The translations under genes and the position numbers were made by a program. From Sinomicrobium soli (GTDB lineage: Bacteria; Bacteroidota; Bacteroidia; Flavobacteriales; Flavobacteriaceae): a stretch of 64,000 bases of DNA. This document shows positions 32,981-37,250 of this stretch, piece by piece. Position 1 is the stretch's first letter. Each line of letters opens with the position of its first letter. The stretch covers positions 62,001 to 126,000 of the forward strand of contig NZ_QLNV01000002.1 in the NCBI RefSeq assembly GCF_003285545.1. The letters are read 5' to 3'. The notes under the pieces were generated by a model. The model searched no databases and was not told where the DNA came from. It saw only the letters and a list, made by a program, of their open reading frames with translations.

Positions 32981-32998
32981 AAGTGTTAAAACACATTG

Positions 32999-34330
32999 AT
33001 GGACAACAGTCTCCTTTTACTCATCATCGCTGCAACAGCCCTGATAGCCGGTATACTGACCGGGGTGTTCCTCCATCGCTTAAGGCAGGGGCGGCACCTG
33101 GCTGCGGGGGAAGAACGGGAAAGGGCCCTCAGGCAGGACAACGACAGGCTTCAACGGGAAATCAATGACCTCAGGGCCGAAAGAACAGCATTACAACAGG
33201 AAAAGGAAAACACGGGATTCCGGCTTGTCCGCCGGGAAGCCGAACTGGAAAACCTGCAGAAAAAACATATCGAACAAAAAGAAGAAACCCGGGAACTCAG
33301 GGAAAAATTTACCCGGGAATTCGAAAACCTGGCCAACAGGATACTGGAAGAAAAGAGCACCCGGTTTACACAACAGAACAGGGAAAACATCAAAAACATC
33401 CTCACCCCGCTTCACGAAAAGATACAGCACTTTGAAAAGAGGGTCGAAGACAGCCAGAAAGAAAGTATCAGCATCCACTCGGCACTTCGGGAACAGCTCC
33501 TTCAGCTGCAACACCAGAACCTCAGAATAACGAAGGAGGCCGAAAACCTTACCCGGGCACTTAAGGGAGACAGTAAGATGCAGGGGAACTGGGGAGAACT
33601 GGTACTGGAACGCGTACTGGAAAAAAGCGGCCTGGAAAAAGGGCGTGAATATGAGGTACAGCAGGGCTTTACCAGGGAAGACGGCTCAAGGGTACTGCCC
33701 GATGTGATCATATACCTCCCGGACGGAAAGAAAATGATCGTGGATTCGAAGGTAAGCCTCACGGCTTACGAACGCTATGTAAATGCCGGTGAGGAACAGC
33801 AGGAATCCTGTCTCAGGGAGCATATCGCCTCCATCAGACGACATGTGGAGCAACTATCTGCAAAACGGTATGAAGACCTGTACCACATGGAAAGCCCGGA
33901 TTTTGTCCTGATGTTCATCCCCATAGAGCCCGCCTTTGCCCTGGCTGTAAACCACGACAATACCTTATACAACAGGGCTTTTGACAAAAATATAGTCATT
34001 GTCACCCCTTCCACGCTCCTCGCCACCCTGCGCACCATAGATACCATGTGGAGCAACGAGAAACAACAGCGCAATGCCGTTGAAATAGCCCGGCAGGCAG
34101 GAGCGCTGTATGACAAGTTCGAAGGACTGGTGACCGATCTCACCAGGGTAGGTAAAAAAATGGAAGAAGCGGGAAAGGAATACAAGGGGGCCATGAACAA
34201 GCTTGTCGAAGGAAGGGGAAATATTATTTCCGGGATTGAAAAACTGAAAAAAATGGGGGCCAAAGCAAAGAAATCCCTCCCCCGGACCCTGCTGGAAAAA
34301 GCTGAAGAAAACGAAGAAAAACCACGTTAA
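32999..34330 (+). CDS. rmuC: DNA recombination protein RmuC
   Basis: The 443 aa protein has an N-terminal TM segment (LLLLIIAATALIAGILTGVFL) and a long coiled coil (about residues 35-190, rich in Glu, Lys, Arg). The RmuC nuclease-like core then follows: MQGNWGELVLERVLEKSGLEKGREYE, DVIIYLPDGKKMIVDSKVSL, DFVLMFIPIEPAFALAV and IVTPSTLLATLRTI. It limits recombination at inverted repeats and acts in phage/foreign-DNA restriction in other bacteria. The in-frame TTG directly before the ATG was not chosen. Confidence 0.94.
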   Translation: MDNSLLLLIIAATALIAGILTGVFLHRLRQGRHLAAGEERERALRQDNDRLQREINDLRAERTALQQEKENTGFRLVRREAELENLQKKHIEQKEETRELREKFTREFENLANRILEEKSTRFTQQNRENIKNILTPLHEKIQHFEKRVEDSQKESISIHSALREQLLQLQHQNLRITKEAENLTRALKGDSKMQGNWGELVLERVLEKSGLEKGREYEVQQGFTREDGSRVLPDVIIYLPDGKKMIVDSKVSLTAYERYVNAGEEQQESCLREHIASIRRHVEQLSAKRYEDLYHMESPDFVLMFIPIEPAFALAVNHDNTLYNRAFDKNIVIVTPSTLLATLRTIDTMWSNEKQQRNAVEIARQAGALYDKFEGLVTDLTRVGKKMEEAGKEYKGAMNKLVEGRGNIISGIEKLKKMGAKAKKSLPRTLLEKAEENEEKPR

Positions 34331-35263: not shown

Positions 35264-35286
35264 GCCGGTATGATCAGCCCAGCACA

Positions 35287-35375
35287 CGATATTTTATTAT
35301 ATCGTCTATAAAAACGATAATTCAAAATATCGCCTTTTAAGACGATATTTTGAATTATCGTATAATTAACCGATA
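35287..35375. promoter_or_regulatory. Array of three CGATA-N8-TATCG palindromes plus an in-phase half-site
   Basis: CGATA-N8-TATCG occurs at 35287-35304, 35315-35332 and 35343-35360. The spacing is exactly 28 bp each time, and a lone CGATA follows at 35371-35375, again 28 bp on. The second and third sites form a 19-bp inverted repeat with each other (35314-35332 and 35343-35361, 10-nt loop). The array ends 9 bp before the SatD-like ATG. It is the likely binding site of an HTH regulator, most simply the SatD-like protein itself. Confidence 0.75.
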
Positions 35376-35379
35376 TTTG
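35350..35379 (+). promoter_or_regulatory. Putative promoter of the SatD-like gene, overlapped by the palindromes
   Basis: TTG (35350-35352), 19 bp, then GATATTTG (35372-35379; one base off TAnnTTTG). Spacing is right for a flavobacterial promoter. The third palindrome covers the -33 element and the half-site covers the -7 box. Transcription would start near the ATG at 35384, suggesting a leaderless message. Confidence 0.5.
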
Positions 35380-35383
35380 TGTT

Positions 35384-36019
35384 ATGACCAGTGTGATTAC
35401 AGGAGATATTATCAATTCCAGAACATCAGGTTCTCCCGGGCTATGGCTTATTCCCCTCAAAAAGGCCCTGTCTGAATTAGCCGTATCCGAAAAGTACTGG
35501 GAAGTTTTCCGGGGCGACAGTTTCCAGGTAGAAATACAGGATTATTACAATGCCTTCCGGGCGGCGGTATACATCAAGGCCTGTATAAAAACCCTCAGGG
35601 AACTCGATGTACGCATGGCCATAGGGATAGGTGACAAGACCCACGAAGGGGCCTCCGTATCAGAATCCAACGGGAAGGCCTTTATCTTTTCCGGAGAACT
35701 CTTTGAACGGTTAAAAAAGGAGAAGACGAACCTGGCCATTAAAACGGGAATTCATCAAACGGATGAAGAGCTCAACCTCTATTTCCGTCTCGGTCTCATC
35801 GCCATGGACAACTGGACCCAAAATTCGGCAGAGATCGTAAAACTCACCATAGAACATCCCGGGTTATCACAAAAGGAGATCGGGGCAATGGCAGGGATCA
35901 AACAAAATACGGTGAGCGAACGGCAGAAGCGCGCCTATATCGACGAGATCATGGCCCTCGATACCATGTACCGGCAAAAAACAGATTACCTGAGATATCA
36001 TCACAATGCCTCCGGGTAA
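35384..36019 (+). CDS. SatD-family-like protein with C-terminal HTH
   Basis: The 211 aa protein starts MTSVITGDIINSR, the N-terminal pattern of the SatD family, with YWEVFRGDSFQVEI and MAIGIGDKTHEGASVSESNGKAF, which resembles a degraded nucleotidyl-cyclase-like fold. The C-terminal LTIEHPGLSQKEIGAMAGIKQNTVSERQKRAYIDE is a helix-turn-helix. The product could sense a ligand with the N-terminal domain and bind DNA with the HTH. The DUF3307 membrane gene follows at 31 bp, a pairing seen for this family. The palindromic array upstream suggests autoregulation. Confidence 0.8.
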   Translation: MTSVITGDIINSRTSGSPGLWLIPLKKALSELAVSEKYWEVFRGDSFQVEIQDYYNAFRAAVYIKACIKTLRELDVRMAIGIGDKTHEGASVSESNGKAFIFSGELFERLKKEKTNLAIKTGIHQTDEELNLYFRLGLIAMDNWTQNSAEIVKLTIEHPGLSQKEIGAMAGIKQNTVSERQKRAYIDEIMALDTMYRQKTDYLRYHHNASG

Positions 36020-36049: not shown

Positions 36050-36751
36050 ATGGAACTCTTTTTAAAATTACTGTTCGCACACCTTATCGGCGATTTTATA
36101 GTACAACCGGACAGCTGGGTCAGTGAAAAGGAAGCAAAGAAACTGGCCTCTGCAAAACTATACCTGCACGCCCTGATACACGCCCTGCTCGTCCTGGTCC
36201 TTACCTGGAACACCGGGATGTGGTACCTCCCGGTCGCCATAGGGGTCACACACCTGTTTATAGACGCCGGAAAACTGCTGTTACAGCGCCCGGAAAACAA
36301 ACGCCTCCTTTTTTATGCCGACCAGGTATTACACCTGCTGGCCATCGCCGTAATATGGGGCCTTGCCACGAATACTCCCCCTGCCTTCTCACTCTCCCAA
36401 AACCAGTGGCTCCTTCTTACCGGAGCATTATTCCTCACCTTCCCCACCTCCATCCTCATCAGGGTCACCATATCGATATACACTCCCGAAACCGGAATGG
36501 CACAGGACGCCTCCCTGCAGAATGCCGGCAAATATATCGGCATACTCGAAAGGTTGCTGGTATTTGTGTTTATCATCAGTGACCACTGGGAAGGCGTCGG
36601 TTTTCTCATCGCTGCCAAATCGATCTTCCGGTTCAGCGACCTTACCCGCTCCAAAGACCGCAAGCTTACCGAATATATCCTTATAGGTACCCTGCTCAGT
36701 TTCGGTACGGCCATAGCCACAGCCATAGCGTGCTCCGTATTCCTGTCGTAA
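36050..36751 (+). CDS. DUF3307 domain membrane protein
   Basis: The 233 aa protein carries the DUF3307 N-terminus (LLFAHLIGDFIVQPDSWVSEK, YLHALIHALLVLVL, GVTHLFIDAGKLLLQ) and several TM helices to the C-terminus (FIISDHWEGVGFLIAAKSIFRF, TAIATAIACSVFL). It is an inner-membrane protein of unknown activity. Its His/Asp-containing TM motifs hint at metal binding but nothing firm. It forms a unit with the SatD-like gene and is followed by a terminator hairpin. Confidence 0.86.
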   Translation: MELFLKLLFAHLIGDFIVQPDSWVSEKEAKKLASAKLYLHALIHALLVLVLTWNTGMWYLPVAIGVTHLFIDAGKLLLQRPENKRLLFYADQVLHLLAIAVIWGLATNTPPAFSLSQNQWLLLTGALFLTFPTSILIRVTISIYTPETGMAQDASLQNAGKYIGILERLLVFVFIISDHWEGVGFLIAAKSIFRFSDLTRSKDRKLTEYILIGTLLSFGTAIATAIACSVFLS

Positions 36752-36863: not shown

Positions 36864-37250
36864 CTATACCCATTCATTAAGGTGCTCGCCGCCGCCGCTG
36901 GAAATTGCACGGCATGAAATGGTAAATGTTTCGGTCAACGGGTTCCTTCCCGAGGCATCAAAAATTTCCTTGTACTTCACCATATACCCTTCCGTAAAAT
37001 GAACCTCCCTGAGTTTGGCATCGGTATCGCGCTTGATATAGGTTATTACCCCGTTCTTGCGCTCGAAATTATTGGTCATCCACTCAAAGAAAAACGAGTC
37101 TCCGGTAGATTCGACGGTCAGGTATATCCTTCCCCCTCTCGTGACGGAAGAAGGGCGCCCGGTAGCATCCACTTCCTGGGCCATATCGTAATTGGCAGAG
37201 AGAATATTCACTTTCTTCCCGCCCACTTCCAAAGTTGCTTTAAATGACAT
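36864..37250 (-). CDS. Type VI secretion system tube protein (Hcp/TssD), orphan
   Basis: The 128 aa protein has the size and beta-barrel look of Bacteroidota TssD/Hcp: SFKATLEVGGKKVNILSANYDMAQEVDATGRPSS, GGRIYLTVESTGDSFFFEWM, and a C-terminal TFTISCRAISSGGGEHLNEWV. In T6SS it stacks as hexameric rings to form the inner tube and can carry effectors. No sheath, baseplate, ClpV or effector gene is near; its neighbours are DUF3307 and a lactonase-fold gene. The full system, if any, must lie elsewhere. Confidence 0.85.
   Translation of the reverse strand: MSFKATLEVGGKKVNILSANYDMAQEVDATGRPSSVTRGGRIYLTVESTGDSFFFEWMTNNFERKNGVITYIKRDTDAKLREVHFTEGYMVKYKEIFDASGRNPLTETFTISCRAISSGGGEHLNEWV

Follow-up and report, generated by a model that had tools for sequence, protein, structure and literature searches.

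A conserved array with a 28-bp step upstream of SatD-like/DUF3307 gene pairs is a probable operator of the SatD-like protein

Our analysis implies that an array of inverted repeats with a 28-bp step, found upstream of a satD-like gene of Sinomicrobium soli, is the operator of the SatD-like protein itself, which would bind it as dimers and regulate its own operon, probably as a repressor; we put the probability of this reading at roughly three in four. The gene lies in the window, by which we mean the whole stretch of 64,000 nucleotides that was analysed (contig NZ_QLNV01000002.1, positions 62,001 to 126,000 of the forward strand). The reading builds on features that were computed, namely the array, its step, the gene pair, the co-variation between the recognition helix and the operator, and the protein fold. 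Autoregulation had been proposed in the original prediction, and the array is indeed conserved at SatD/DUF3307 pairs, while the recognition helix of SatD co-varies with it, from which we infer the binding itself. Autoregulation by the SatD-like protein is thereby strongly indicated at the level of sequence.

A sequence scan of the window shows that, in the intergenic region before the satD-like gene (35264-35383, 120 bp, 31% G+C), exact copies of CGATA-N8-TATCG begin at 35287, 35315 and 35343 and another CGATA follows at 35371, each of them 28 bp after the one before. These three sites and their step had been predicted from the letters alone and are exact, and so is the 19-bp mirror image that had been noticed between the second and the third site. 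When the intergenic region was shuffled 200,000 times by mononucleotides, at least one such site arose in 31 shuffles and two or more in none. The CGATA at 35371 does continue the 28-bp step, but it is not the lone half-site it was taken for: it forms the right arm of a complete TATCG-N10-CGATA, and it is the 5'-most CGATA of the array (35287-35291, plus strand) that is the orphan, its left arm having no match. The window thus holds three putative operators of the pattern TATCG-N10-CGATA, to which no strand is assigned: operator 1 at 35300-35319, operator 2 at 35328-35347, 28 bp from the first, and operator 3 at 35356-35375, 28 bp from the second, which sits between the putative -33 element and the -7 box and runs into the latter. 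The pattern is observed three times in the window, against an expectation of 0.01.

Half-sites with a score of at least 15 were called in 101 loci (L033, L046, L068, L093 and L096 were dropped), 94 of them with a clear h3 position, by a caller that favours an ATA anchor and G or C at two positions and mis-registers some loci, for instance L008 and L071 as judged by eye. The N8 palindrome, which had been put forward as the operator unit, was rejected in favour of the N10 dyad on the ends of these arrays: a left half comes first in 91 of the 101 and a right half comes last in 89. Runs of six half-sites are the commonest (49 loci), followed by runs of eight (18), four (12) and seven (11). Since the arrays are bounded in this way and runs of six prevail, the N10 dyad is the unit and most often occurs three times per array. 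The window array (L005), a run of seven half-sites of which the first is a right half, is an exception to the left-half start at its own 5' end. The distance from dyad to ATG equals 18 bp (modulo 28) in 28 of the 101 loci.

The conservation of the step was examined in 110 loci including the window's own, 109 of which had enough upstream DNA and 106 of which were distinct; they come from the best 80 of 290 loci and from 30 of the 108 satD-positive family genomes. As similarity to the two window proteins served to find every homologue, the sample leans to their relatives. Stretches of at most 200 bp before satD were tested at lags of 10-60 bp against dinucleotide-preserving shuffles, with 184 random pieces of the same loci as controls. 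A repeat lag of 28 bp scores best in 99 of the 106 distinct upstream regions, compared with 5 of the 184 control pieces, and the seven regions with another best lag are L008, L033, L046, L068, L096, L107 and L110. At lag 28 the z-score is at least 3 in 101 of the 106 regions, and in 96 the lag-28 score is above the highest score that any lag reaches in 95% or more of the shuffles. The mean z is 16.5 at lag 28 and 6.9 at lag 56, and lies between -0.41 and 0.38 at all other lags from 10 to 60; the controls give 0.03. The letters of the half-sites change from clade to clade: ACGATA in Sinomicrobium and Mesonia, CCGATA in Pedobacter, TGATA in Mariniflexile and Confluentibacter, GGCATA or GGAATA in Winogradskyella, CAGATA in Parapedobacter and Imperialibacter, and in Tenacibaculum CGAAT in several loci and GTTATA in two others. 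A comparison of upstream regions, as the original prediction had suggested, recovers its 28-bp phase (99/106), but the literal CGATA-N8-TATCG is confined to some clades. The data support the array as a conserved feature of SatD/DUF3307 pairs, with its geometry kept and its letters varying by clade.

SatD and DUF3307 are found as a pair across several bacterial phyla as well as haloarchaea, and distant pairs were collected from plasmids and predicted viral contigs; 17 of 19 loci (leaving out L129 and L143) were tested for the step, with mononucleotide shuffles as in the window intergenic region. A step of 28 or 29 bp is present in 14 of the 17, although the independent number of loci is lower than 17 because some are close relatives of one another. 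The best lag is 28 in six loci (one from Vibrio, two each from Salinivibrio and Pseudoalteromonas, one from Segatella) and 29 in eight (L125, L130, L131, L132, L135, L140, L141 and L142), namely four viral contigs, two haloarchaea, an E. coli plasmid (p 0.045) and an Enterobacter plasmid (p 0.025). The upstream lag test found no array in the remaining three of the 17 (L133, L134 and L139). Both haloarchaeal proteins are full-length members of the SatD family PF16264 (E 2.7e-32 and 8.5e-32), with DUF3307 downstream and the 29-bp repeat upstream. On the E. coli plasmid pEC34A (L125, 1792-3481), which is mobilizable and 3.8 kb in size, the SatD-like/DUF3307 pair is the main cargo and the 29-bp repeat is weak (p 0.045). 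Six plasmid records of Klebsiella, one of them 4.4 kb long and the other five 3.8 kb, contain SatD-like matches as well. On a plasmid of Sphingomonas insulae (L139, 1072-4546), the pair adjoins genes annotated as a Pycsar effector and a cyclase, and its upstream region is without the array.

Within the genome of S. soli, exact CGATA-N8-TATCG occurs four times, three of them in this array (the fourth is L004), against one match of the reversed control pattern. TATCG-N10-CGATA occurs 17 times, three in the array and 14 scattered, against five for its reversed control. The one scattered copy that was inspected (L144) lies within a coding sequence, and there may be further single-site targets of the SatD-like protein among the remaining 13. 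A strict array pattern of three half-pairs was also searched in 199 genomes of the family: it matches in eight, adjoining satD in seven of them and not in G144, and its reversed control matches in four of the 199; this test covers the CGATA type only, because most clades use other letters.

The change of letters is accompanied by a change in the protein. Structure alignments comprised 78 of the 110 SatD and 37 of the 110 DUF3307 proteins, and 169 variable SatD columns were tested for co-variation with the operator core (h2-h4) over pairs with less than 60% N-domain identity, stratified by that identity. The top three of the 169 columns are residues 179 (0.385), 175 (0.234) and 176 (0.209), all of which fall in the helix modelled at residues 174-183. 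The corresponding recognition-helix codons (QNTVSERQKR), designated on the basis of the model helix and the operator co-variation, lie at 35903-35932 on the plus strand, with the codon of residue 179 at 35918-35920. The 107 N-domain columns used as a control give a mean of 0.003 and a maximum of 0.127, and the 179 DUF3307 columns used as a second control give 0.010 and 0.245. The DUF3307 column at 0.245 lies above residues 175 and 176; the stratification therefore leaves some shared history, and only residue 179 stands clear of both controls. Its value was reached by none of 500 permutations.

At this residue a glutamate (E179) pairs with C at h3 in 43 of 47 loci, whilst a lysine (K179) pairs with G in 24 of 26, and the exceptions are G179 with C in three loci, K179 with T in two and E179 with A in three. 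In edge-disjoint tree contrasts, residue 179 differs in 9 of 11 contrasts with different h3, versus 17% of the 18 with equal h3 in the same distance range. Among 164 columns ranked by these contrasts residue 179 is first and residue 167 second, and residues 175 and 176 rank 12 and 16. Taken together, residues 175, 176 and 179 predict h2, h3 and h4 at 77, 79 and 72% (101 loci, donors below 55% N-domain identity), compared with 45, 44 and 49% for the nearest N-domain donor.

The satD-like gene (35384-36019, plus strand, ATG at 35384) encodes 211 residues which, judged by the reading frame, Pfam, homologues and the structure model, consist of a cyclase/GGDEF-like palm at about 1-140 and an HTH at about 145-184. 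The C-terminal HTH (residues 145-184) matches Sigma70_r4 of Pfam with E 2.1e-5 and 24.4 bits against a cut-off of 24.1, and the N-terminal part has no Pfam match at E<=1. The predicted likeness to the SatD family holds through the relatives, as 63 of the 78 homologues in the alignment reach E<=0.1 against PF16264, with 4.2e-13 as the best value, but the window protein itself gives no match to this profile at E<=1. A PF16264 profile search at E<=0.001 found nothing in the organism's own genome (0/1) or in the control genomes (0/14). Four A1 members compared with the profile comprise two above its 29-bit cut-off across nearly the whole length (L090 and L086) and two below it (L114 and L101).

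The model of the SatD-like protein (pLDDT 96.2) resembles, by Foldseek, structures of GGDEF proteins, class III cyclases and GTP cyclohydrolase III, with TM-scores of about 0.4-0.5. The best match is 4zvh (E 7e-4), the sole one with E<=0.001, and others include the M. avium adenylyl cyclase Ma1120 and the GTP cyclohydrolase III MJ0145. A degraded cyclase fold had been suspected here: the fold agrees with the confident model and with its best PDB matches among GGDEF and class III cyclase structures, albeit at modest TM-scores, but the word degraded is only partly right, as all 23 members compared (17 distant and six nearer ones, including the window's) share D8, S12, G44, D45, Q48 and R77. The haloarchaeal proteins among them read GDEFQ. 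By analogy, D8 and D45 could serve as a metal-binding acidic pair, and the N-domain is, on the model, a palm of the cyclase/GGDEF type; two of its acidic positions do not vary among the members.

The gene that directly follows (36050-36751, plus strand) encodes the DUF3307 that had been predicted, a membrane protein with a match to PF11750 at E 8.4e-30 and 103.8 bits against a cut-off of 23, and the same order is kept throughout the sample: DUF3307 is downstream of satD on the same strand in all 110 loci, with a gap of -4 bp in 64 and of at most 145 bp. Of the 199 family genomes that were sampled, 108 contain a satD relative. The DUF3307 model is all-helical (pLDDT 89.9) and gave no useful match when compared with the PDB (best E 0.88). 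Its sequence carries four i/i+4 pairs of His and Asp, of which H11/D15 is identical in 25 of 25 proteins and H40/H44, H68/D72 and D91/H95 are kept at 80-100%, and DUF3307 may accordingly be pictured as a candidate membrane metalloenzyme. In Fusobacterium vincentii (L143, 2038-2794) several of the conserved His/Asp positions of a DUF3307-like protein appear by eye to be changed, and the preceding gene has GDEIQ. In the window, a gene for a TssD/Hcp-type protein (36864-37250, minus strand; PF17642, 8.6e-47) is convergent with the DUF3307 gene, and an rmuC-like gene, recognised by eye, lies upstream at 32996-34330 (plus strand). The DNA just before satD in some Winogradskyella loci (for example L051, L055 and L073) also resembles by eye the tail of an rmuC-like gene, which suggests that the rmuC-like gene and satD form a conserved neighbourhood. 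Our literature search, thin on subscription journals, returned one paper that mentions DUF3307 by name, but no described function for the SatD/DUF3307 pair and no SatD operator array; the streptococcal sat operon is reportedly linked to acid tolerance.

Under the 3' end of the array, TTG-N19-GATATTTG is present as originally claimed, with TTG as the putative -33 element at 35350-35352 and GATATTTG as the putative -7 box at 35372-35379, both on the plus strand. It may be a promoter of the Bacteroidota sigma-A type, from whose -7 box, TAnnTTTG, it departs by one mismatch at the first base. Operator 3 fills the spacer of this putative promoter. An exact TAnnTTTG is found within 75 bp of the ATG in 33 of 106 upstream regions, 18 of which have a TTG at 17-23 bp, and the box starts at one array phase in 25 of the 32 loci that have both a box and a callable array, a fixed phase that follows in part from the half-site itself, which contributes the TA of the box. 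According to the excerpted text of PMC9723704, the -7 box occupies -12 to -5 relative to the transcription start, and leaderless mRNAs make up only 5.5% in F. psychrophilum. From this position of the box, transcription of the satD-like gene would start at the ATG itself (35384) and the mRNA would be leaderless.

In the mechanism that we propose, each SatD dimer would take one 20-bp TATCG-N10-CGATA site, a geometry suited to two recognition helices on one face of the DNA because the h3 positions of the half-sites are 11 bp apart, about one helical turn. Neighbouring dimers, 28 bp apart, probably touch each other and would bind cooperatively along the ladder. Because the last site spans the spacer of the promoter and reaches into the -7 box, bound SatD would block RNA polymerase and hold down the satD-DUF3307 operon, that is, act in negative autoregulation. 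The palm-like N-domain, whose invariant acidic pair resembles those of metal-nucleotide sites, probably binds a nucleotide, which would change the dimer contacts and thereby release or tighten the ladder, and the output of the module would be the DUF3307 membrane protein. It is from the computed features that we infer binding, the sign of the regulation, cooperativity, the ligand and the activity of DUF3307. A broader picture is tentative, and we consider it possible but not probable: SatD/DUF3307 would be a bacterial and haloarchaeal two-gene signalling module in which a nucleotide-binding palm repressor coats a 28- or 29-bp ladder, the step would be set by dimer contacts and outlast a near-complete turnover of letters, and the nucleotide state would melt or build the filament and so govern a membrane metalloenzyme of new fold, DUF3307.

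It might be argued that the array is bound by another regulator and that SatD is merely encoded beside it. Arrays for unlinked regulators exist in principle, and the binding by SatD is a predicted one; however, the strict pattern is nearly private to satD (seven of the eight matching genomes) and residue 179 tracks the operator letters best of all tested SatD columns in two tests, and we regard such a regulator as very unlikely. Still less probable is that the repeats are not protein sites at all, being instead RNA hairpins, replication or partition iterons, or duplicated promoter units. Were a TAnnTTTG box repeated at 28-bp steps, a TTG would fall 20 bp ahead of each following box, which is a workable promoter spacing, so that promoter units stacked in this way would show the step; related pairs also reside on small plasmids. 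Nevertheless, the 28-bp step is kept in clades whose inner copies are, by eye, without TTTG, the array would not be transcribed if the mRNA is leaderless, and all these readings leave the co-variation of helix and operator unexplained.

SatD could also bind the array and activate the operon, or switch with its ligand, for example from the upstream sites. The array of Tenacibaculum loci, which by eye lies upstream of a promoter-like sequence, would suit this, but in the window, and likewise in the 25 of 32 boxed loci that have the -7 box at one array phase, a site and the promoter overlap, as is usual for repression, and activation thus seems unlikely to us. A different matter is the role of the module, where repression by SatD would be compatible with a toxin-antitoxin-like or anti-phage unit in which SatD is the autoregulating control partner and DUF3307 the effector. 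The weakly HipB-like HTH with its 28-bp operator step, the related pairs that are carried by mobilizable plasmids of 3.8 kb or by predicted viral contigs, and the one pair that adjoins a Pycsar locus point in this direction. However, PADLOC gave no match at E<=1 for either window protein and, for the SatD-like protein of the plasmid, matches in the HTH part only, and the presence of satD in 108 of the 199 sampled family genomes is more like core physiology; such a role therefore appears rather doubtful. A search of named phages with both window proteins gave no match at E<=0.01.

Repression by the SatD-like protein through the array remains our preferred reading, and the array provides a handle on SatD/DUF3307, since it points to a DNA target, allows base preferences to be predicted from a few residues and opens the regulation of the pair to tests in many species. 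It also constitutes a natural series suited to studies of how regulator specificity evolves, with a constant operator geometry and with recognition letters and helix residues that change in concert.

Among known systems, GGDEF and class III nucleotidyl cyclases share with the SatD-like protein the fold of its N-domain and the acidic pair in GD-x-x-x-S and GD-x-FQ-like motifs, but the TM-scores against the N-domain are only about 0.4-0.5 and the comparison of catalytic residues consists of the acidic pair alone. Transcription regulators of the CdaR/PucR class pair a GGDEF-like domain with a C-terminal HTH, and one regulator of this type, BAD_0249 (3onq), is among the Foldseek matches at rank 33 with a probability of 0.66, a weak match that extends over 232 columns at 15 A rmsd.

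The closest described case is HipB of E. coli, an HTH autorepressor that, in the excerpted text of PMC3376134, binds cooperatively to four upstream operators with the consensus TATCCN8GGATA. Counted in the O1O2 oligonucleotide printed there, O1 and O2 of hipBA are 28 bp apart (PMC3376134), the same step as in the window array. HipB chains are also the best PDB sequence matches of the SatD profile, although weakly (E 0.013, profile positions 148-183). The arms of the HipB operator are N8 apart, 2 bp shorter than the N10 of the window operator, and HipB is partnered by the kinase HipA, whereas the partner of the SatD-like protein is DUF3307 in 110 of 110 loci, with no HipA next door. The matched HipB chains in the PDB are 71-91 residues long, and the palm domain belongs to the SatD-like protein; to our knowledge, HipB has no cyclase-like domain. 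What the window array has in common with arrays of the HipB type is several inverted-repeat operators, placed at 28-bp steps upstream of the gene for the protein that is predicted to bind them.
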